Of a stretch of DNA of 64,000 nucleotides, positions 2,121 to 17,125 are shown piece by piece. Location of the stretch: contig JAPNXP010000003.1 in assembly GCA_028753945.1 (NCBI GenBank), positions 434,001 through 498,000 of the forward strand, read 5' to 3'. Source of the DNA: Hexactinellida sp. DTS-2022. Lineage: Eukaryota; Porifera; Hexactinellida. Within the stretch, counting starts at the first letter, position 1. Each line of letters starts with the position of its first letter. A program made the translations under genes and the position numbers. The notes under the pieces are model-generated. The model did not search any database. It saw only the letters and a program-made list of their open reading frames with translations, and was not told where the DNA came from.

Positions 2121-3468
2121 TTCTAATCTCAGTGCCTTGGTTAGTTATTATTATTATTTATCCGTAGCCACTCCACAGAACAGAGTTTTATCAACTAAGA
2201 GCCCAAATTTTTAGGATGGGTGTCTCATGGGTTACAGATGTGCACCTGGGGTTACGATTTTTAATTAAGAAATTTTGGACACATGTTTAACACCTTTCAA
2301 AATTTGTCTGGTCCATAGCTCAAAAATTGTTTTACTAAATCCCCAAATTTTATTTCACATTTGGATTCGCCATAAAATTCTGCGTCTGATGGGAGAAGTA
2401 ACTTTTCAATAAAGGGGTCAATTTCTGCCATAAATGGGGGTTGAAATTTCTTTGTTTACTCACACTTCAATTTCAGTAAAACTGTGAAATCTAATTCCAT
2501 TGTTTCAACTTGTAATAATTATATTGCTTTAACTTGTTAAATCCTACTCTAGTGATTCAACTTGCGATAATTATATTCATTTAACTTATAAATTCCAGCT
2601 GGCTTCTATTTAATTCTAGTATTACTATACAATGGATTAAATAAAATATTATAATATAAGGAATTTGTTGACTTAATTCAACTTAACCGTGGATAACATT
2701 GCTAAAATACATAACTAATACTATAATTTATTAACAATACATAATGAATGAATGGCTTTAAAGTTTAAACTCAAGATGGTTTATGATAGAACCGTAAGAT
2801 TTTACATTCCACAACAACGACAGATTAAGTGAATATATTTATTTCGGCGAGAATATTCTTGCACAATTAATGTACTGACGTAATTAATTCTAATTAATTC
2901 GCTCTGTGTTTAACGTATAGAGACGGTTCTAAATTGATTATTGGGTTTATCGAGTTCGCTGAATTCAAATATGATAATGAAATTCAATTTAAATTAATAA
3001 TTATTCCAAATAATTGAACTTAATTTATTTTGATGTACATAATTTTGGTGTTAAATTATTAATAGATTAATTAAATTTTTATACTAATTAGCTAAATTTC
3101 ATTAATCTCAGAGATGATACAAGATAGAAACAAACTTTGAATTTATCAATTGGTCCTTATGCCAGGTACCACCTATACAAGTGGGTCTTGACACCTTGAG
3201 GTGATGATGACATCGTCAAAAAAATCTATTTTTACAATTTTTTTAATTCGACATTTAAAATGGGTTAGTTGGTGTTGGGTGATGACCCAACACTCACATA
3301 AAAAATCCTGACTCATCACTTAATATATTCAACTGAAACTTGAATATCTTTGAAATGAAGTGAGCTAAAACATAACTTTCAACTCACTAAGCGTTGTTGC
3401 CTTTGGAAACACCTTTTCGAAATAATTTAACACCTTCATAGTGATGATGACATGGCGAAAAAAAAAAA

Positions 3469-3583
3469 TCCAAAATTGCAGCCTATGCCGAGAGCATGTT
3501 CCTATGGAGGCACTATCAATAAACCACCACCAAAATATAGTTCCACCAAAGGAACATGCGTCGGCACAGGCTGCAATTTTGGA
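3469..3583. repeat. 115-bp hairpin, copy 3
   Basis: Third copy of the hairpin that ends array units, with the same arms and loop as copies 1 and 2. Confidence 0.85.
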
Positions 3584-4404
3584 TTTTATTATTATTTATC
3601 CGTAGCTCACCTACAGAACAGAGCATAATTAACTAAGAACTGAAATTTTCAGGACAAGTGTCTCATAGGTTACAGATGTGCACCTGGGATCACGGTTTTT
3701 TATCACATTTTTTTGGCCACATTTTGCACCTGTTTAATATTAAAACAGGAACAATAAAGAGTACCCGAATACTCAATTTATATCCATTCGATAGAGAATT
3801 CAATTCTACACCTTATCACAGTGCACGAATTTTCAAATTGGGCTTCGTATCTGCCGCAATTTAGTTGCAAATTCCCTTTGTTTACTAACACTTCTGTTCA
3901 ATTAAAAGTGCTAAATCTAATTCTATTGTTTCACCTTTTAAAATTATATTGATTCAACTTGTTAAATCTTACACTATTGTTTCAACTTGCGATTATTATA
4001 TTGATTCTACTTGTGACTTCGAACTGGCTTCTATTTCAACTAATGTTAGGCATTTCGTTGCTATTTATACTAGAGTTCTCCAGTTTTAATTAAAACTATT
4101 ATATTTTCAATACAACTTGCTACTTTTATTTGCTATTTACAATTTGCTACTTTTTCGATACTTTAACGAAGCTCATCCATTCCTAAGGTTAGTATGAATT
4201 AAGTTATTACATTTATGAATTAATTAAGTTAGTAGATTCGAAGTTAATTAAGTTATTATATTTATTAATGAAGTTATTACAATAGAAGTTTCGATTAATT
4301 CCTCTATTACTTCTCGATGAATTTATTAACTTATTTTATTTATGCTTTGATGAATTCAGTTATTTTCTGATCACTACACCATTGTTAATTTACTTATACT
4401 AGAT

Positions 4405-4657
4405 ATGATTTCTATTGAGCTTTGGAGAGCAAGAATTGGAGGCTGGGGAGGAAAAGGTAGATTACCTAGGGGATGTGATGAGACCCAGAATTTCTACCCC
4501 ATTACGAAACAGGCGGATCCGATATTAGCACTATCATGTTGCCTGTTGTTCGTAGTCATCAGGATACTCCTAATTATTGGTGGAGTTGAGCTAAATCCTG
4601 GACCTACCGGAGGAGATCCTAATGCCTCATCTTCTGAAGACTTCTCATCTGAAACAG
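4405..4657 (+). CDS. Helentron exon 1 with 2A-like ribosome-skipping peptide
   Basis: The exon starts at ATG 4,405 and encodes a leader whose residues ~40-58 are hydrophobic, followed directly by GGVELNPGP (4,579-4,605). This matches the 2A/StopGo signature (D/G-V-E-x-N-P-G-P), where translation skips the Gly-Pro bond, here Gly66-Pro67. The donor is CAG/GTATTT at 4,658. Joining to the acceptor TTTTAG at 5,443 keeps the frame, since the lone G completes a GAT codon. The 2A would therefore detach a 66-residue leader from the transposon protein. 2A motifs are known from RNA viruses and from some non-LTR retrotransposons, where the leader can also act as a targeting signal. The motif is seen; its activity is inferred. 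Confidence 0.75.
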
Positions 4658-5209
4658 GTATTTATTTCATTGTCATTTAATTATGAAGTTTAGTCATTAT
4701 GTATTTTTGCATATTTTCGAAGCGAATTATCCATTTAATTAATTTAATTAATTAACTATGAAAGGATGTCATCGATAATTCTTAAAATGAATAGTTAACA
4801 GTTTTTATCTAAATCAACCATCTTCTCCATACACTAAGTACACTGATATTATAAGTCTGTAACTATAAGAGGCATACGTATTATATTACATTACAAACTA
4901 TGCTGCTTGATAATTACTCTTAGTTTTTTTTAAGTGAAGATGTGTTTCACAGAAGTGCAATGAAAACACTTGCATATTTACAGTTGATGATTTCAATTCT
5001 AATATTCAAATTAGTAACGAAATAATAAACTATTTATATCTCTTTTCTAATAATTATACTTACTGTTAATTAAACACTTGCACATCTACAGTTTTTGATT
5101 TCAATTATATTATTCAAATTATTAACGAAATAATAAGATATTTATATCTCTTTTGTAAATATAGCCGATTGTTGTTTTTATTCTTTACAGTTCAAACATA
5201 ATCTAAATA

Positions 5210-5364
5210 TACAATGATATTGCTTTATTAGCAACTGGCATTTTGTATTAAATTTGGTTGCTAATAGAGCACCAAAAATAACATTAAAAGTTTGCTTGGG
5301 AACTTAAAATAAGTGCTAGCAGAGTAATGTTGCTAATAGGGGAGTTGCTAGCAATTCCACTGTA
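5210..5364. mobile_element. Small pogo/Tc1-like MITE in Helentron intron 1
   Basis: Runs from a TA-CAATGATATTGC end to a GCAATTCCACTG-TA end; internal motifs TTGCTTTATTAGCAAC and GCTAGCAATTCC are shared with copies at 59,722-59,880 and 61,092-61,253. Lies inside the 786-bp intron 4,658-5,443. Confidence 0.6.
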
Positions 5365-5443
5365 TGTTTTAATAAGATGAAATGCAATTTGAGTATTGGT
5401 ATTCTATTTATATTGTTCCTATACCCATAATACAATATTTTAG

Positions 5444-6528
5444 ATACTATGGATATTTCGACTGATCTTACTATCCGAGAATTGAATCCAATGGAAGTAC
5501 AGTTATGCTCGCAAGGAGAAACTAACGAAGATTCGGAATCTGAAATGAATGCTGATCTAAGCCAGGACATTCAGCGTACCCCGATTACTTCTCAGGTTGT
5601 ACCGATGAATGATCTCGGGCTGTCTAGCCAGTGCTCCTCTAGTTGTGCTACTCCTAGCAAGGGCACACCTATCTCTACTCCTAAGTCTCGGAAGAGGAAG
5701 GGGTATAGAGCTACTAAGGATAGAAAGAGAGATGCTATTAAAAAGAGGAGAACGGATGATACTGAGTTTCGTGATAATGAAAACGAAACAAGACTTGTTA
5801 ATGCCAAGAAAGCTCTGGAAGATCCTGAGACACGAGCGAAACATAATAATGATATGTTGAAAATAATGACAAATAAGCTCAAAGATCCAGCTGAGAGGGC
5901 GAAACATAATGCATTTGTTGCAGATAAGCTCAAGGATCCAGCTGAGAGGGCAAAACATAATACCGCTGTTGCCAATAAGCTCAAGGATCCAGCTGAGAGG
6001 GCAAAACATAATACCGCTGTTGCCAATAAGCTCAAGGATCCAGCTGAGAGGGCGAAACATAATGCATCTGTTTCCAATAAGCTCAAGGATCCAGCTGAGA
6101 GGGCAAAACATAATACCGCTGTTGCCAATAAGCTCAAGGATCCAGCTGAGAGGGCGAAACATAATACCGCTGTTGCCAATAAGCTCACGGATCCAGCTGA
6201 GAGGGCAAAACATAATGCATCTGTTGCAGATAAGCTCAAGGATCCGGCTGAGAGGGCGAAACATAATGAACGCCAACTGAAGCTTGTTACCGAGAAACGG
6301 ATAGACTCTAACGAGAAAATAAAACACAACCTAGCTGAGTTAGATAGGTATAGAACTATGCAAAGTGCACTTAAGTCGGTTATTCTCAAATATCTATCTG
6401 AGATAGCTGAAGGGCCCACTTTTGTTTGTTCTTGCTGTGGATGTCTCCATTTCAGGAAAACAGTTGTAATTCTTAAGATAGAAAAACTTGTTTCAACGAA
6501 TGTGTGCAAACATGATTTCGTCAAACAG
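5444..6528 (+). CDS. Helentron exon 2: basic, repeat-bearing, zinc-binding N-terminal region
   Basis: In frame with exon 1. After an acidic, Ser-rich start comes a basic stretch (KSRKRKGYRATKDRKRD), then eight or nine near-identical 17-residue units built on KLKDPAERAKHN (about 5,870-6,270; 51-bp DNA repeat), then a Cys cluster FVCSCCGCLHF (about 6,418-6,450) typical of the Helitron N-terminal zinc region. The exon ends at CAG/GTAATT, 6,529. The repeats are very similar at DNA level, so the expansion is recent or kept uniform by gene conversion. Antisense ORFs of 256 and 323 codons here are shadows of the repeat. Confidence 0.75.
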
Positions 6529-6672: not shown

Positions 6673-7523
6673 GTTTTTCTCTATGAGACAGTCAACATTG
6701 AGTATGTGTGTAAGACCTGTCTGATTAATATCAAAGATGGCAGAGTCCCTAAGATAGCGTTGTGCCGTGGCTTAACTTTCCCCGAGATCCCTCCTGCTCT
6801 ATCTGGTCTGACTGTGATAGAACAGAGACTGGTATCTCCCAGGCACGAGTTCATGAACATCAGATCTCTGGGCAGGGAGAGACAGCACGGGCTGCACGGC
6901 ATGGTTGTTAATGTTCCCATAGACGTAGATAAGACTGTTAATCAGTTACCTAGGACGTTCTTACAGTCCCAAACCATTCAGTTACAGTTGTTTCGTAAGT
7001 TATCGTTCGCGAAACCTTATTTATACGAAACGATAAGACCGAATGTAGTGTTAGAAGCAGCTCTCTATCTCTCTACCACTGAGCTCTTCAAGCTAGAGAA
7101 GGTAGTAGTTTCAGAGAAATGGGTTAACTCTGTTCCACGAACTGGTATTGATAATGTTAATTTTATTGTTAACCCGAATGACGAGCCTTGTGATATAGTG
7201 GTAGATGAAGAGGAACAGGGTTCTGAGACCGTTCCTGGTATCGAGGAGCTCTTCGATAACCTTGAGGAGTTGTTGAAGGAGATTGATGATTGGGATGAGA
7301 CCAAGGATGATCTCCCCATTAACCCTGGTTCTCTAGACACACTGCTGCTGTCTAATGAGAACCTGCTAATGAAATTGGCTCCTGGAGAAGGGAGGAAGCC
7401 TCTGTACTTAACCACGGATAAGTTTATAGAGGAACTAGCGTACCCTTGTGTGTTTGCTGGTCAATGCAGAGACTTACCTCAGGACTTGTCTATCCTCAAG
7501 AAATCAAAGTCTGACATCTTGAG
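6673..7523 (+). CDS. Helentron exon 3: Helitron N-terminal (DUF6570-like) region
   Basis: Starts after the acceptor CTATTTAG (6,672), in phase with exon 2; intron 2 is 144 bp. It carries CKTCLINIKDGRVPKIAL, then GLTFPEIPPALSGL, then VIEQRLVSPRHEFMNIRSLG and VVNVPIDV with LPRTF. This is the conserved order found before the Rep domain in Helitron/Helentron proteins (GL-x-P-x-L, L-x-x-x-E-x-x-L-I-S-P, V-N-V-P, L-P-R). An acidic linker follows (about 7,180-7,320). The donor is GAG/GTTAGT at 7,524. Confidence 0.8.
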
Positions 7524-7905: not shown

Positions 7906-9669
7906 ATATGATAGGAGATGTAGCACTAACATCCCTCTGCTGCTTCTCAAGTACAAACTGGTGGAGACAGCTAGTCTTAACAGTGCTATCAGTATTTGTA
8001 TGAGAAAAACAAAGTCTACAGATGGACAGGCTATAACTGTATCTGATGTTCTCAATGACGAGAATCTGGAGAGAATGGTTGAGGACGATGAGGCTTTTAA
8101 GTTCTTAAAGCAATTCCGGTCTACCCCTGCATTCTGGCAGCAGAAACAGAGAGAGCTGATGTCTATGATAAGACAGCTGGGATGTCCCACGTTCTTTCTA
8201 ACTCTGTCTGCTGCTGAGACTAAATGGCTAGAGCTACTAAGGATACTGAAACAGATCCTCGATGACGTTAAGCTGTCTGTTGAAGAGGTTCTGGAATTCC
8301 AGTGGAGCGAGAGAGCAGATCTGATAAGGAGAGATCCTGTCACTTGTGCTAGGTACTTTGATCACCGCTCCAAGGAGCTATTTAAAGTACTTCGATCAGA
8401 GGTTATTCCCCTTGGTAAATTGACTGATTACTATTTGAGAATAGAATTTCAGCAAAGAGGGTCACCACATGTGCATTCATTACTTTGGGTACAAGATGCC
8501 CCTAAGTATGACCACAATCCGTTACCTGAAGTAATAGAATTTATTGATCGTACTATCTCATGTAAATTGCCAGATGAGACTAGTATAATAACTGAGGATG
8601 ACATTAAGTTACAGCGACATAAACACACGAATACGTGTTATAAGAAAAAGTCGTTTCGTCGTTGTAGGTTTGGTATTCCAGGGCCGTAGCCACCAAAATC
8701 AAAGTGATCAGGTTAACTTGACCAACCTGACCGAGTGGCCAGGTTAATCTGGCCAACTTGACCGAGTGGCCAGGTTAATCTGGCCAACCTGACCGAGTGG
8801 TAAGGTTAATCTGACCAACCTGACCGAGTGGTCAGGTTAATCTGGCCAACCTGACCGAGTAGCCAGGTTAATCTGGCCAACCTGACCGAGTGGCCAGGTT
8901 AATCTGGCCAACCTGACCGAGTGGCCAGGTTAATCTGGCCAACCTGACCGAGTGTTAAGGTTAATCTGACCAACCTGACCGAGTGGTGCCATATTGGGAA
9001 ATTCAACAACCAAAAGTGGTCAGGTTGAAACCTGACCAACCTGACCAGTGGCTACGGCCCTGTATTCCGTACCCTCCAATGGTATCAACTAAAATTCTAG
9101 AACCTTTGGAGTTTGCTGCCAGTACGGCTACCAAAGAGGAGATAGCAGCTAACGCAGCTCTTAAGGAGACTGCTAAGAAAATATATACTCTCATTGACAC
9201 CTATGATAAGAGCGATACTGACTTAGGTAGTATAACGATACAGGATTTCTTTAATGAACTCTATGTTACCGAAGAGCAATACATAACTGCATTGAGATCT
9301 TGTATTAATAGACCTACTATATTTCTGAAACGAAATTTGAATGAGATACGAATCAATGCTCATAATACGACTATTTTGCATTTATGGAAAGCTAATATGG
9401 ATCTCCAATACATATTGGATCCATACGCTTGTGCTGTTTACGTTATTTCGTATATCGGAAAGTCCCAACGTGGGATGTCTAAGTTGTTGAGAGATGCCTT
9501 AATGCATCTGAAAGCAGGCAATGCCACTATTAAAGAGAGACTGAGGGGAATTGCTTACAAATTTCAGAGCTGTAGGAGGTATCAGCTCAGGAGGTTTCTT
9601 ACCATCTCCTCAGTCTCCCTCTCTCTAAGTGCAGTAGAGCTAATGTCTATATTAACACTAGTCCGCTAA
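7906..9669 (+). pseudogene. Helentron Rep (HUH) domain, split by a 384-bp MITE
   Basis: The acceptor TTCCCTAG at 7,905 joins exon 3 to give the Helitron motif RYDRR. The domain holds RYFDHR (about 8,350), LGKLTDYYLRIEFQQRG and the HUH metal-site motif HVH (8,467-8,475), then CRFGIP, where the MITE 8,679-9,062 interrupts it. Past the MITE the frame resumes with YPPMV, then the Rep tyrosine region CAVYVISYIGKSQRG (about 9,430-9,480). Near 9,580 the reading frame changes: conserved residues that follow (VSAQE, YINTSPL) lie in another frame. HUH Rep proteins nick and join single strands during rolling-circle transposition. The copy cannot encode an intact Rep. Confidence 0.8.
8679..9062. mobile_element. 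hAT-like MITE with 31-bp repeats, inserted in Rep
   Basis: Terminal inverted repeats CAGGGCCGTAGCCAC and GTGGCTACGGCCCTG, perfect over 15 bp. Flanked by a 5-bp duplication TATTC (8,674-8,678 and 9,063-9,067). Removing the insert and one duplication restores the conserved Helitron residues CRFGIPYPP in frame. Most of the inside is about ten copies of a 31-bp unit built on GACCGAGTGGCCAGG and TGGCCAACCT, itself semi-palindromic. Confidence 0.9.
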
Positions 9670-9706
9670 TAAACGGGTTAGGATACTCAAGTCCAAACCC
9701 ATTCTA

Positions 9707-10828
9707 ATGGGTATGGAGCAGGATTCTGTAGATATACTTCTGTCAGGTCTAATTGAGCACTACATGCAACGACCTGATGAGTTAGAGGAAACATGCCTAG
9801 CAGAGTTTGCAGCTTGGTATGAATTTCAATCTAGTAAGAGGATATGTAAAACTAATCCCGACTTTGAGGAGGAAAATATGGAAGACGAGGCAGCGTCCCT
9901 GGTCGATAATCCGAGACTATTTCCTCTCAGAGATACAGGTTTTATGAGACTCCGTCGTAAAGCTAAAATTATCCGATTTAGAAGGTATAGTATTATACAG
10001 GACGAAGTTAACTTTTATAGAGAACAGTTAATGCTGTTTGTACCATGGAGAACTGACACTAATGATACTGATAATATCGACTTTAAGTCTATGTATGCTA
10101 CCCATCTTACTCTGATTACTCAGAATAGGGAACTATTTGAAAGCAACGACCAATCCTTAATTGACGCGGCTATTAATATCCTCGAGGACTTGGACCCTGA
10201 TGAGCTTAACTTTGATGGGATTGCTATTGAGGAAATAATGAACAATGAGGGTGCAGTGGTTATTGAGGATACTGACTTCCAGGTAAACAATCCAGGGAAC
10301 GACAATCCCTGGACTGTAGATCCCAATAGTGATCCCGGAACTAAATTTGTAGGAGGATTCTTCACTATTCCTAACATGAATACTGAGGAGGTATTCCTTG
10401 AGATGTGTCGCAACTTGAACAAGGTTCAGCGTACTGTATTCCTCCACACTCTGCACTGCTTTAAGGCTATGAAGCAGCTGCCCATGTATCTCTATATAGG
10501 AGGAGGTGCTGGTGTTGGTAAGAATACGGTGGTACGAGTCTTATACGAAGGTTTGGTAAGATTTATGAATTCACTGCCTGGCACTAAACCTGATGCTATT
10601 AAGGTACTGCTAACAGCTCCTACAGGTAAAGCTGCTTTTAATATCCGTGGTATGACACTACATTCTGCATTTGCTTTACCTGTAACGGAGTTTAACGGCG
10701 AAATGCCCAACTTATCTTCTGATGTTTGTAACACATTAAGAAGTAAACTAAGCTGTTTAAAAGTTATCATAATAGATGAAATATCCATGGTTGGTAGTAA
10801 ATTTTGTCTCAGGTTAATAAGCGATTGA
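9707..10828 (+). pseudogene. Helentron Rep C-terminus and PIF1-like helicase, N-terminal half
   Basis: Carries the end of Rep (HYMQRPDELEETCLAEFAAW, a conserved Helitron motif), an acidic linker, then a helicase with Walker A GGGAGVGKNT (about 10,498-10,530), TAPTGKAAFNIRG (motif Ia) with LHSAF, and Walker B IIIDEISMVG (about 10,765-10,795). The frame closes at 10,828; the next helicase motifs continue in the frame of the following ORF, so one frame change lies near 10,800. PIF1-type helicases unwind DNA during rolling-circle replication. Confidence 0.8.
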
Positions 10829-13374
10829 AAGCCATTATGGACAATTCACTGGACTTTGGTGGTGTCTCCATCATCTGTGTTGGAGATTTCCATCAGTTAC
10901 GTCCGGTTAAGGATAGCTATGTATTTCAAATTTCAGTATCCAGTGCCAATAATTACGACGGACTGGTTGATCCGTACCTTTGGGAAAAATTCTCATTTAT
11001 AGAACTGACGGAAATAATGAGACAAAAAGATGATCAGAAGTTTGCATTAGCATTGAACAATTTTGCTAACTGTTGTTTAACTGAGGATGACACAAATCTT
11101 TTTACCAGTAGAATTATTGCGAAAGATTCTTATGAGAATCTTCCCATAAAATCTATCCATCTGTTTAGTACAAACGCCAGTGTTAATGCTCATAACGAGA
11201 TTGTTCTCAATGCATTAACCACTGAAGGTTTTAGATTTATATCTATTTATTCTTTAGTAGGAGATACTGCTGGTGGTATTACTGACAAACTGAGTAACGT
11301 TATTAAACACCTAAAGGTATGTGACACCCAGGGACTACCCTGTGAGCTCTTCTTGAAGCTGGGCGCTAGATACCTCATGACGCTGAATATCGACATACAA
11401 GATGGTCTGGTTAATGGAGCTACTGGCCTCTTGAAGAAACTAGTGTATGGTACCAAGAGCGATTCTCTGGAACGAGTTCCCTGTATCCTCTGGATTGAGT
11501 TTGACGATCCAACAGTTGGAAAGGACAAACGAGCGAAGTCTCAGCATCGTTATCTTAGAGATAGTGCAATTCCAAGGAACTGGACTCCTATTGGATTGGA
11601 AACACGACGTTTCCAGAGAGGGAAAGCCGTGAGTTGTTATAAGATAGTTAGGAAGCAGTTTCCTTTCATAGTAGCTGAAGCTCTTACAATTCATAAGAGT
11701 CAAGGTGATACTTACGACTGTGTTGTAGTCCATATAGAAATACGTTTGCTACGTAATGCGTTATACACCGCGCTCAGTATGGCTAAATCGGCATCTGGTC
11801 TGTTTGTAGTTGGTAATCTAAAACTAACTAATAAGTTATCTGAAAAAGATCCTGTCCACTTAGAACTTAAGCGGTTAAGAGAACACTGTGCTATAATCTG
11901 GTCTATTCCACTAACTAGTCCAGATATCTATGTACACAATGTTCGTTCATTGAACAAACACTGGGAAGACTTGACCTTAGATCCACTCATAGTGCAATCC
12001 CAAGTGTTAATCTTACATGAGACAATGACTTTAGCCACTGATAACTTTAATATCCCTGGTCATACTCTCATTGGTAGAATTGATGGTGGTACTAGACTTC
12101 CTGGTTCTGGTACACACATATACTCCCGAAATCCAGCGATGTGTAAGTCTTTAGTTGCACACTCAGGCTGTTATAATGGCGCTAGGATCGAGATATTGAT
12201 TCTCCAGTACTATTATCCCATGATAATCGATAAACCTGTCGTGGTAATCTCTATATACCGATCACCACATTCCCCAATGAAGGAATTTTACTCTGAGTTT
12301 GATCAGGTTCTAAGTAAAATTGATAACTCTGATCCCTTGATAATTACTGGGGACTTCAATATAGATTTATTTTCCCGATCTCCTGAGAGAGATACCTTGA
12401 TAAAGTATTTTGCAAATATAGGGATGATGCAATCTTTGTCTGGAGTATCCACTAATTATGGATCTCAGCTTGATTGTGTATTCACTAAAAACTTGATCTG
12501 TTCATCTGGTTTTTATGAATCATACTTTAGTGATCATAAGCCAATGTTGATTTCTCTTGGAACTGTTGTTAGTGACTGTAGTAATGTGGATAATCAACCA
12601 ATTATATCACATGCTACTAGTCAACATGATATCATTGATATTGACCAAATACCAATTGATAATACAACTAAGGATATTCAGGATGTAATTGTTAGTCATG
12701 TACACATCCCTACTCCTGTGCTGCCTCCCGTAAATACATATGACAATGCTAATTCATTCACATTTGCGATGAGACAGTCATTAGCTCAATGCATTAATCT
12801 ACAGAGAATACCTTTAAGACCGACTAACTATACTGGGTCTAGAGTCTCTGCTACTAGTTATTATGATTTTATGCGTACAAATGTAAGAGATCGGTTTAAT
12901 TTCAGGATAGTTCCTGTAACAAGTGATGGGAATTGTTTCTTTAGAACATTGTCTCACATTATTTTCGGTGATGAAAGTGAGCATCATAATATCCGTGGTT
13001 CTCTAATAGACACATTTGAACAAAGTCCTTATGTTGCTGCTTTCTGTGGCATCCAACGCTATAATGCAGTTGCTATTCAGCAACACTTGAGTAATATGAA
13101 GCGTAATTACTCTTGGGGAACTGTGAATGAACTTATTATGTTTGGAATCTTAGCTGGTATTAATGTTAGTTACATTAATGCTGTTGTTACAGATCCTTCT
13201 AAGTGGGTAATAACTGATGTGTCTACTGATAATATTCTCGGTAAACCAAGTGATCCAATATATGGAGGGAGACACCTTGTTGTGTTGTTTCATAGTATTA
13301 ATTTCTCTGGATCTTGTTCTAATCATTATGACGCATTGTATCCTGTTAATAATGCTCATAATTCTGTTTATTAA
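10804..13374 (+). CDS. Helentron helicase C-terminus, EEP endonuclease and OTU protease
   Basis: An 856-codon open stretch. Helicase motif III CVGDFHQLRPV comes first (about 10,877), and later AEALTIHKSQGDTYD and RRNALYTALS-like LLRNALYTALSMAKS (motifs V-VI). From about 11,930 there is an exonuclease-endonuclease-phosphatase fold: VHNVRSLN, LILHET, IYRSP, GDFNID (about 12,349), LDCVF and SDHKPM (about 12,530). From about 12,900 there is an OTU cysteine protease with SDGNCFFRTLSH (Asp and Cys) and terminal NHYDAL (His, about 13,320). Rep-Hel plus EEP plus OTU is known in Helentrons. This part is uninterrupted, the best-preserved piece of the element. Confidence 0.85.
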   Translation: MSQVNKRLKAIMDNSLDFGGVSIICVGDFHQLRPVKDSYVFQISVSSANNYDGLVDPYLWEKFSFIELTEIMRQKDDQKFALALNNFANCCLTEDDTNLFTSRIIAKDSYENLPIKSIHLFSTNASVNAHNEIVLNALTTEGFRFISIYSLVGDTAGGITDKLSNVIKHLKVCDTQGLPCELFLKLGARYLMTLNIDIQDGLVNGATGLLKKLVYGTKSDSLERVPCILWIEFDDPTVGKDKRAKSQHRYLRDSAIPRNWTPIGLETRRFQRGKAVSCYKIVRKQFPFIVAEALTIHKSQGDTYDCVVVHIEIRLLRNALYTALSMAKSASGLFVVGNLKLTNKLSEKDPVHLELKRLREHCAIIWSIPLTSPDIYVHNVRSLNKHWEDLTLDPLIVQSQVLILHETMTLATDNFNIPGHTLIGRIDGGTRLPGSGTHIYSRNPAMCKSLVAHSGCYNGARIEILILQYYYPMIIDKPVVVISIYRSPHSPMKEFYSEFDQVLSKIDNSDPLIITGDFNIDLFSRSPERDTLIKYFANIGMMQSLSGVSTNYGSQLDCVFTKNLICSSGFYESYFSDHKPMLISLGTVVSDCSNVDNQPIISHATSQHDIIDIDQIPIDNTTKDIQDVIVSHVHIPTPVLPPVNTYDNANSFTFAMRQSLAQCINLQRIPLRPTNYTGSRVSATSYYDFMRTNVRDRFNFRIVPVTSDGNCFFRTLSHIIFGDESEHHNIRGSLIDTFEQSPYVAAFCGIQRYNAVAIQQHLSNMKRNYSWGTVNELIMFGILAGINVSYINAVVTDPSKWVITDVSTDNILGKPSDPIYGGRHLVVLFHSINFSGSCSNHYDALYPVNNAHNSVY

Positions 13375-14838: not shown

Positions 14839-15175
14839 TGTAGAACTCATTGTTTTTTTTTTCCAAATTTTGATTGAATTCTCTTGAGAATTGATTTGGG
14901 GAAAATCGGGGAAAGGTACTGAGGTGTGACCCAAGTGCACCCACTGATTGTTATCAGCAACCCTGAGGGACCGAATTGAAATTCTTCATAAATTTAAAGC
15001 AGTATTCTGTAATTATATTGTATATGGGGGTAATTGTGGATGATGAATTCAAGTATTGCATCTTAATTTAGGTTAAATTATTAGTTGATAATGAATTAAG
15101 ATCGTATTGCTAATATCAACGAATAAACTTATTGCACATTACGTATATGATAATGTAACATTCCGCCTATGCGGA
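14839..15175. other. Unassigned AT-rich DNA
   Basis: Between the hAT element and the right repeat array. A partial hairpin-like match (AAAATCTAAAATTACAG) starts near 15,178. No gene seen. Confidence 0.5.
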
Positions 15176-15858
15176 GAAAAAATCTAAAATTACAGATGTG
15201 CATACAACATGTTCATAATTAATTTTCTCCGTAGACGGTGCGCCAGAGCTTTATGGTTGATGGGCTGTAACTTTGCATATTGGTGCGATGGGACCGTATA
15301 ATTTGCACCTGGGGTTACGATTTTGCATCTTTCAAAGTTTGTCTGGTCCATAACTCAAAGAATATTTTACTAAACCCCTAATTTTTATTTCACCATTGGT
15401 TCACCATAAAATTCTGAGTCAGATAGGAAAATAAAATTTAGAATAATGAGTTTAATTTCTGCCATAAATGGGGGTTAAGATTTCTTTGTTTACTCACACT
15501 TCAATTTCAGTAAACTGGTAAGTAAATATATTTCTAATGTTTCAACTTGCGATAAATATATTGATTTAACTTATAAATTCCAGCTGACATCAATTTAATT
15601 GTAATATTACTATACAATGGATTAAATAAAATAATAATATAAAAAATTTGTTCACTCAACTCAACCAACCGTGGATAACATTGCTAAAAAAATAACTAAT
15701 AATATAATTTATTATCAATACATAATGAATGAATGGCAATAAACCCAAGATGGTTATGATAGAAACAAACTTCAAATTCAACAAACGTTCCTTGTGACTA
15801 CGACCAATTAACAAATGGTTCTTCACACCTTGGGCGTTGATGACTTGGCGAAAAAAAA

Positions 15859-15973
15859 TCCAAAATTGCAGCCTGTGCCGACAGCATGTTCCATTGGAGG
15901 CACTATCAATAAACCACCACCAAAATATTGTGCCACCAAAGGAACTTGCGTCGGCACAGGCTGCAATTTTGGA
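15859..15973. repeat. 115-bp hairpin, copy 4
   Basis: Same TCCAAAATTGCAGCC hairpin; the 34-bp motif follows at 15,985-16,022. Confidence 0.85.
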
Positions 15974-17125
15974 TTTTTTTTATTACTGTGCCGACTATAC
16001 TATAGTATAGTGGCCCAGTATTGGTCTTAGTGCTTTGGTTAGTTATTATTATTTATCCGTAGCCACTCCACAGAACAGAGTTTTACTAACTACGAGCCCA
16101 AATTTTCAGGATATGTGTCTCATGGGTTACAGATGTGCACCTGGGGTCACGGTTTTTTATAACACTTTTTTGGACACATTTTTACACCTGTTTAATGTTA
16201 GAAAAAGCACAATAAATAGTGCGAGAATATTAAATTTATATGCATTCGATAGAGAATCTAATTCTACACCTTTTCACAGTGCACGAATTTTTAAATTGGG
16301 TTCCATTTGTGCCACAATTGAGTTGCAAGTTTCCTTTGTTTACTAACACTTCAGTTCAATTGAAAGTGTTAAATCTAATACTATTGTTTCAACTTGTAAT
16401 AATTATATTGATTCCACTTGCGAGATCGAGTAGGCTTCTATTTTCTAATTGAAAACTAAGATTATATATTTCATAACAACGACAGATTATGTGATTATAT
16501 TTATTTCTGCTTAGAATATTCTTGCACAATGGATACATGACATATTTAATTCTAATTAATTCGCTTTGTGTTTAACTTATAGAGACGGTTCCAAAGAGAT
16601 TATTGGGGTTATCAAGTGAGCTGAATTCAAATATGATAGTGAAATTTAATTTAAATTAATAATAATTGCAAATAATTGAACTTCATTTATTTTGCTGTAC
16701 ATAATAATGGTGTTAACTTACTAATAAATTAATAATTATTTATACTAATTAATTAAATATCAAAAATCTCAGAGATTATACGAGATAGAAACAAACTTCC
16801 AATTTATCAATTGATCCTTATGTCAAGTAACACCTCTACAAATGGTCTTGACACCTTAAAGTGATGATGAAATCGTCAAAAAAAAGTATTTTTACAATTT
16901 TTTGAATAAAATAATTCGCATTGGTTAGTTGGAGTTGGGTGTAAACCCAACAGCCACTTAAAAAATGCTGAGTCATTACAGATTATATTCTACTGAAACT
17001 TGAATATCTCTCAAATGAAGTGAGCAAAATGGAAACTTCCACCACTCTAAGGGTCGTTGCCTTCTGAAACACCTTTCTGAAATAAAATAACACCTTCAAA
17101 GTGATGATGACTTGGCGGAAAAAAA

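Follow-up and report, generated by a model that had tools for sequence, protein, structure and literature searches.

A leader ending in a predicted StopGo core heads a Helentron and unrelated transposons in a glass sponge genome

What is a 2A-like ribosome-skipping motif doing at the start of a Helentron protein, and does it belong to the element? According to passages of Li 2026 (PMC12846837), StopGo occurs mostly in viruses and seldom in cellular genes. The locus that raises this question lies in a window of 64,000 nucleotides (C12:434001-498000) from Hexactinellida sp. DTS-2022; we read it in detail and searched the genome of 112.4 Mb, on 18 contigs, for its relatives.

The leader and the protein behind it

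The leader starts at ATG 4405 and comprises 67 codons, its last residues being GGVELNPGP at 4579-4605. Reading from this ATG gives MISIELWRARIGGWGGKGRLPRGCDETQNFYPITKQADPILALSCCLLFVVIRILLIIGGVELNPGP, with TGGDPNASSSEDFSSET next and a GT donor at 4658 thereafter. The Helentrons compared include family A, to which the window copy belongs, family B, and the copy L013. The features at the 5' end of the window element are the following.

4405..4657, + strand: exon 1, coding part, 253 nt, ending in phase 1
4405..4605, + strand: leader open reading frame, start to NPGP, MISIELWRARIGGW... hydrophobic ...IIGGVELNPGP
4405..4446, + strand: conserved N-terminal block MISIELWRARIGGW; M1, I2, S3, E5, R8 and I11 invariant in 16 aligned leaders
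4522..4578, + strand: hydrophobic 19-mer ILALSCCLLFVVIRILLII, mean Kyte-Doolittle value (KD) 3.05, adjoining the 2A core upstream; not kept in family B
4579..4605, + strand: 2A/StopGo core GGVELNPGP, predicted break between the last Gly and Pro
4658..5443, + strand: intron 1, GT...AG, 786 nt; absent in family B and 118 nt long in L013 (worked out by hand from the sequence)
5444..6528, + strand: exon 2, with an acidic/basic N-terminal region, tandem KLKDPAERAKHN-type repeats and a CSCC end; boundary 6528/6529 placed by eye

The window core, GVELNPGP, agrees with the StopGo rule (D/G/C/N)(V/I)ExNPGP, the broadened form given in passages of PMC12846837. Compared by eye, the residues before it (LLIIG-G, L-rich and ending in GG) resemble 'motif 5' (L-rich, G at p12), which passages of the same paper place outside the four motifs assayed.

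In the window sequence, intron 1 has its donor GT at 4658-4659 and its acceptor AG at 5442-5443, and the codon across the join, G|AT, encodes Asp, followed by T-M-D-I-S (TMDISTDL...) in the spliced translation. The donor GT stands at or beside the expected place in 11 of 12 family-A copies, the window included and L011, which reads AAGT, counted among them; the exception is L010. An acceptor block was found in nine of the 12, with AG kept in eight and AA in L006. In L013 the intron is far shorter and of the same phase. In the family-B Helentrons L023, L024 and L029 the intron is missing: a single open frame runs through a homologous leader, NPGP and TPISSQVVPLNDLDLSSQ, and the TPISSQVVPLNDLDLSSQ after NPGP matches TPITSQVVPMNDLGLSSQ of window exon 2, which supports the frame across the window join. 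Together, this indirect evidence makes a good case that the 4657/5444 join is real. The initial annotation had proposed that splice sites at 4,658 and 5,443 join the leader in phase, and the G|AT frame, the family-A splice sites and the intronless family B uphold it; at the level of sequence, we regard the leader and its in-phase join to the Helentron protein as confirmed.

Downstream of exon 2, the window contains the following features.

6673..7523, + strand: exon 3 with a DUF6570 region (6739-7113); exon ends placed by eye
7906..8689, + strand: start of exon 4, with the Helitron_like_N Rep domain (8042-8485); exon start placed by eye
8680..9061, + strand: tandem-repeat insert that breaks the Rep/helicase frame of the window copy
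9662..11073, + strand: PIF1-type helicase, in two frames in the window copy
12241..12546, + strand: endonuclease Exo_endo_phos_2, fused behind the helicase, a Helentron hallmark
12922..13140, + strand: OTU-like stretch (PF02338, E 0.023, below the Pfam cut-off)
14895..14983, + strand: block common to the window and L029 at 91%; candidate 3' terminal region

By its domain content the window element is a Helentron. According to passages of Thomas 2014 (PMC4067079), the defining set is Rep, a PIF1 helicase and, behind it, an endonuclease. Here we found a Rep domain of Helitron type (PF14214, E 7.3e-29), a PIF1-type helicase (PF05970 in both halves), and an AP-type endonuclease at the Rep/helicase C-terminus (PF14529/PF03372, following the helicase end in frame). 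Helentrons are further marked by sub-terminal inverted repeats, a 3' palindrome, insertion at T-T and, occasionally, an OTU protease, for which the window copy has the sub-threshold OTU-like stretch. Of such termini, it yielded the shared 89-nt block near its 3' side alone, its 5' end being buried in repeats. No reverse transcriptase was found downstream of the window 2A, where the domains are DUF6570, Rep, PIF1 and endonuclease, nor was an RT domain found in the Helentron pieces scanned, save in the Pfam name of an endonuclease model. The window copy is broken downstream by the insert near 8680-9061 and by frame breaks near 9660 and 10800; in many other Helentron copies the Rep domain sits in an open frame of 1652-1709 aa.

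Two kinds of repeat were seen along the way. The array at 8680-9061 consists, read by eye, of roughly 31-bp tandem units, and related stretches precede the L002 leader and follow the L009 leader at about 600 bp. Another repeat (938-1069, 1785-1912, 3458-3593 and 15838-15985) matches itself on both strands and has stop-free frames; it is present in many copies in the window and at many compared loci, upstream of both family-A and family-B leaders.

Core sites and leaders across the genome

The pattern (V/I)ExNPGP, which ignores the residue before V/I, occurs at 137 sites in the genome (in lists of 41 and 96), compared with 3 for the reversed pattern. This control rules out a chance origin of the motif. 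The original reading of GGVELNPGP at 4,579-4,605 as lying in frame on a Helentron was right. Searched against its own genome, the window leader gives 100 reported matches, one of them to itself; 64 of the 137 core sites overlap these matches and 73 do not.

Among 145 of 159 candidates scored, 31 are near-complete Helentron Rep copies (almost full length, at least 95% identity), two of which hold stops. In 26 of the 31 a same-strand core site lies upstream within 12 kb, and in 24 within 5 kb; 16 of the 26 have a core of I type (family B) and 10 of V type (A and L013). The initial annotation had named related Helentrons without NPGP as counter-evidence. Those that we found are the remaining five: one has a Q variant, IQINPGP (L059), two have a leader broken by an insert (L057, L060/L061), and two have neither leader nor exon 2 in the 3-kb stretch read (L056, L058).

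Core sites were also counted by score class of the Rep domain. These counts come from 150 Helitron_like_N hits listed, from 150 of 292 candidates scored, and so are not whole-genome totals. Among the matches listed, a site lies upstream of 27 of 43 hits of 95-106 bits, of none of 13 weaker hits, and, within 12 kb, of none of 94 hits of at least 106 bits. We took the 94 to be canonical Helitrons because their scores exceed those of the Helentron class; in the four of these that we inspected individually, ORFs span 1890-1930 aa and ExNPGP is missing from all frames of at least 60 aa. Within 5 kb of the 43 hits of 95-106 bits, neither the downstream side of the same strand nor the opposite strand holds a core.

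Homologous leaders are also found on other kinds of element. They head a Mutator-like lineage (PF20700) with ORFs of 879 and 912 aa; in the 29 PF20700 rows tabulated, out of 116 matches, the leader lies about 0.5 kb upstream in eight and is absent in 21. They also head an OTU-carrying inverted-repeat element without a Pfam transposase (L025-L028), whose 710-bp inverted repeats are 98.6% alike in L026. A leader specific to Helentrons is ruled out by these Mutator-like and OTU-carrying elements. Judged by these homologies, the leader is a module, not a part of the transposase, and heads at least three element types in this genome.

Several further observations concern these and neighboring groups. 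L025-L028 and L062 have the blocks LDATGS and VE(I/V)DFSWAM in common and are possibly an unnamed DDE-type transposon; the AlphaFold model of the OTU-element protein was useless (pLDDT 28.7). In the L037 group GDVEVNPGP follows MGVDLCTLRNHIGIF, with the same core letters at seven sites and nearly the same at one more, and the element behind it is distantly related to the OTU element. Three matches of one leader type at C11:9014641, 9023170 and 9032766, with equal scores and a spacing of about 9 kb, look like a local duplication; the one that was read, L011, has NSGP.

We also read 20 representative core sites outside the window-leader match list, one of which (L052) has a weak leader match. 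The residue before the core is D, G or N in 18, a hydrophobic 10-mer (mean KD at least 1.9) lies within 30 residues upstream in 12, and in 11 a stop follows within 28 codons after the core, as if a splice donor came next. The cores of L036-L055 fall into several sequence groups outside the leader family; that of L047 is followed by an integrase in frame, and those of L048 and L050 lead into PHD-like fingers (weak Pfam hits). None of 36 pattern matches in viral contigs was confirmed as a relative.

Conserved leader ends and recombined 5' parts

Across families, leaders keep a first block, MIS-E-(W/Y)R--I, and a last one, GG(V/I)ExNPGP. In 16 aligned leaders, 60-69 residues long, L56, G59, G60, E62, P65, G66 and P67 are invariant in addition to the six N-terminal positions listed above, although E5 and the NPGP columns vary more once all leaders are counted, because omitted leaders break some columns; none of columns 18-54 is invariant. 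Left out were near-duplicates (L003, L004, L006, L008, L009, L024 and L026, and also L001, the window copy); L010 (insertion), L011 (NSGP), L018 (NPGL), L059 (IQINPGP) and L022 (start LIY); L019 and L021 (EHPGP, L021 also with E5G); and the broken or partial L030, L035, L052, L057 and L060. On these comparisons, the second conserved block at the leader start and the sharing of the leader by unrelated transposons take the picture beyond the initial annotation.

The exact core is present in 58 of 72 stop-free full leaders compared with 2 of 8 leaders with stops (Fisher p 0.0025, for copies that are not independent and a leader search that rewards the motif). Three of the stop-free leaders without it have EHPGP instead of ENPGP; these are the Mutator-like L016, L019 and L021, with open frames of 546, 313 and 541 aa. 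Passages of PMC12846837 report this p16=H variant as >95% active in its natural context. In L018 and L011, the skip signal looks lost. The middle of the leader is less uniform: the 19-mer has a mean KD of 2.75-3.05 in the window, L013, Mutator (L017) and OTU-element (L025) leaders, where it ends 5-8 residues before the break, and family B has no such stretch, with a KD of 1.0-1.3 in the four copies read (three with IEINPGP and one with IQINPGP).

The leaders appear older than the backbones behind them. The protein backbones of A, L013 and B Helentrons share 93-98% identity, and three segments give dS of 0.08-0.18. In contrast, A and L013 leaders are identical at 37 of 67 aa with dS 1.67, and A and B leaders at 32-33 of 60-62 aa with dS 1.94 or saturated. 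Along the gene, dS between A and B drops from 1.7 for mid-exon 2 to 0.48 where that exon ends, and to 0.13-0.14 for exon 3; these rate contrasts draw on few sites (67 codons for the leader, 40 synonymous sites for mid-exon 2), and the exon 2 comparison lacks two of eight fragments, the middle one of L013 and the end one of L029, which were not found. With synonymous sites near or at saturation in the leader and low dS in the backbone, these data indicate that old 5' parts have recombined with a young backbone: each Helentron would join a diverged 5' part (leader, intron or none, and exon 2) to a common young backbone. Because divergence drops stepwise along exon 2, there is no single clean breakpoint. 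Faster evolution of the leader protein is ruled out as the sole cause, since synonymous divergence approaches saturation in the leader and is high in exon 2, but stays low in the backbone.

Non-coding repeats further upstream are common to A and B at about 85-88%, so that not all sequence 5' of the backbone is old, unless the common repeats arrived independently. In the 300 nt before the ATG, cross-family identity is 0.42-0.57, while shuffles (20 of one pair) give a mean of 0.50 and a maximum of 0.55; the single cross-family pair above the shuffles is A_L002-B_L023, at 0.57, and three pairs within family A give 0.63, 0.48 and 0.48. Between families, leader pN is 0.27-0.37 and pS 0.67-0.81, and pN well below pS points to purifying selection. 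Both 5' parts have kept a same-family leader with a skip core, selection having probably preserved both leader ends.

What the leader may do

We propose that the Helentron mRNA is translated from ATG 4405 and that the ribosome, on reaching ...IIGGVELNPG, would skip the Gly-Pro bond (StopGo). The leader would be released as a separate 66-residue peptide, and synthesis would continue into a Rep/helicase/endonuclease protein starting Pro-Thr-Gly-Gly, leader-free and able to reach the nucleus. That release of the leader is the main event, and that the released peptide has a role of its own, we put at a probability of roughly 60%. The skip probably does not require the invariant first residues of the leader, more than 40 residues away from the core, which is why the peptide may have its own role.

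The initial annotation offered two possibilities, that the leader is detached during translation or that it targets a fraction of the protein. We favor detachment, which the comparisons support better than targeting; targeting as a general role is unlikely because family B has no hydrophobic stretch, leaving release as the common denominator. A specific form of targeting would follow the sea-urchin NLR leaders, with the uncut part anchored in or passed through the ER and the skipped part in the cytoplasm or nucleus. Passages of Roulston 2016 (PMC4981915) provide an experimental precedent, and the 19-mers of the window, L013, L017 and L025 leaders, at KD 2.75-3.05, are of the right kind, but we consider this unlikely: the stretch is missing in family B, whose core type heads 16 of 26 Rep copies, a transposase would have no evident use in the ER, and the stretch should still be inside the ribosome tunnel at the moment of the skip.

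We think it more doubtful still that the site acts as a throttle, at which some ribosomes stop and so limit transposase output while the leader is otherwise idle. Termination is one of three 2A outcomes in passages of PMC4981915, and limited output would be useful to any transposon, hence the sharing of the leader; this idea does not, however, account for the N-terminal block, invariant in 16 aligned leaders and so far from the core. Finally, it is very improbable that the leader is a hitch-hiking, non-functional 5' exon: the exact core is missing in 14 of 72 stop-free full leaders and changed in L018, L011 and L059, and L056 and L058 are otherwise near-complete Rep copies with no leader in the stretch read, yet amino-acid change is moderate while synonymous sites approach saturation, with pN well below pS, both leader ends are kept across families, and the core is kept more often in stop-free leaders.

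Returning to release of the leader, the module looks kept and reshuffled, and its likely job is to come off during protein synthesis. A broader proposal, to which we give slightly less than even odds, is that the StopGo-ended leader is a portable DNA-transposon module passed among Helentrons, Mutator-like and OTU-carrying elements, with 5' parts and backbones recombined. Selection would keep the skip and the N-terminal motif, and each transposon would co-produce a small leader peptide of the same kind with a useful role.

Known systems offer partial parallels. As in the 2A-like signal sequences of Strongylocentrotus purpuratus NLRs, described in passages of Roulston 2016 (PMC4981915), an N-terminal leader stands directly before the 2A core, once per protein, and the skip would detach it. 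The sea-urchin leaders in those passages have 26 residues and belong to host immune receptors, whereas the sponge leaders have 60-69, start with MIS-E-(W/Y)R, sit on transposons, are sometimes spliced on and are not always hydrophobic. With viral StopGo/2A, as presented in passages of Li 2026 (PMC12846837), they have in common the core rule and the p16=H variant, and their L-rich, GG-ending upstream residues resemble motif 5 by eye; unlike the viral sequences, the leader here does not lie between viral proteins. The text of PMC12846837 contains no word starting with 'transpos' or 'helitron', and 'retrotransposon' once. Like the Helentrons of Thomas 2014 (PMC4067079), the sponge elements have Rep, a PIF1 helicase and a C-terminal endonuclease; the leader and the recombined 5' part go beyond these, as the passages of that paper, retrieved with search terms other than 2A, contain no 2A leader.

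In the open-licence PMC literature, we found no paper with both NPGP and Helitron and none joining '2A-like sequences', 'DNA transposon' and 'NPGP'; among the matches listed for NPGP with transposase, none is on this subject by title and abstract. Work by Odon in 2013 reportedly found 2A sequences on APE-type non-LTR retrotransposons. Like these, the sponge leaders place a 2A on a mobile element of a multicellular organism; unlike them, the carriers here encode Rep/helicase or Mutator-like transposases. A 2025 survey by Rao, said from its title to cover eukaryotic and viral 2A, may already include some of the sites.

An N-terminal StopGo/2A is a known kind of arrangement, to which the leader of Helentrons and other DNA transposons adds a variant. 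For gene annotation, this means that a transposase may open with a short 2A leader as its first exon, linked to the rest across an intron. One genome with 137 core sites, 64 of them overlapping matches to one leader family that heads unrelated transposons, provides natural replicates for learning which leader residues are needed for the skip, why transposons want a detachable leader, and whether they carry 2A from genome to genome.
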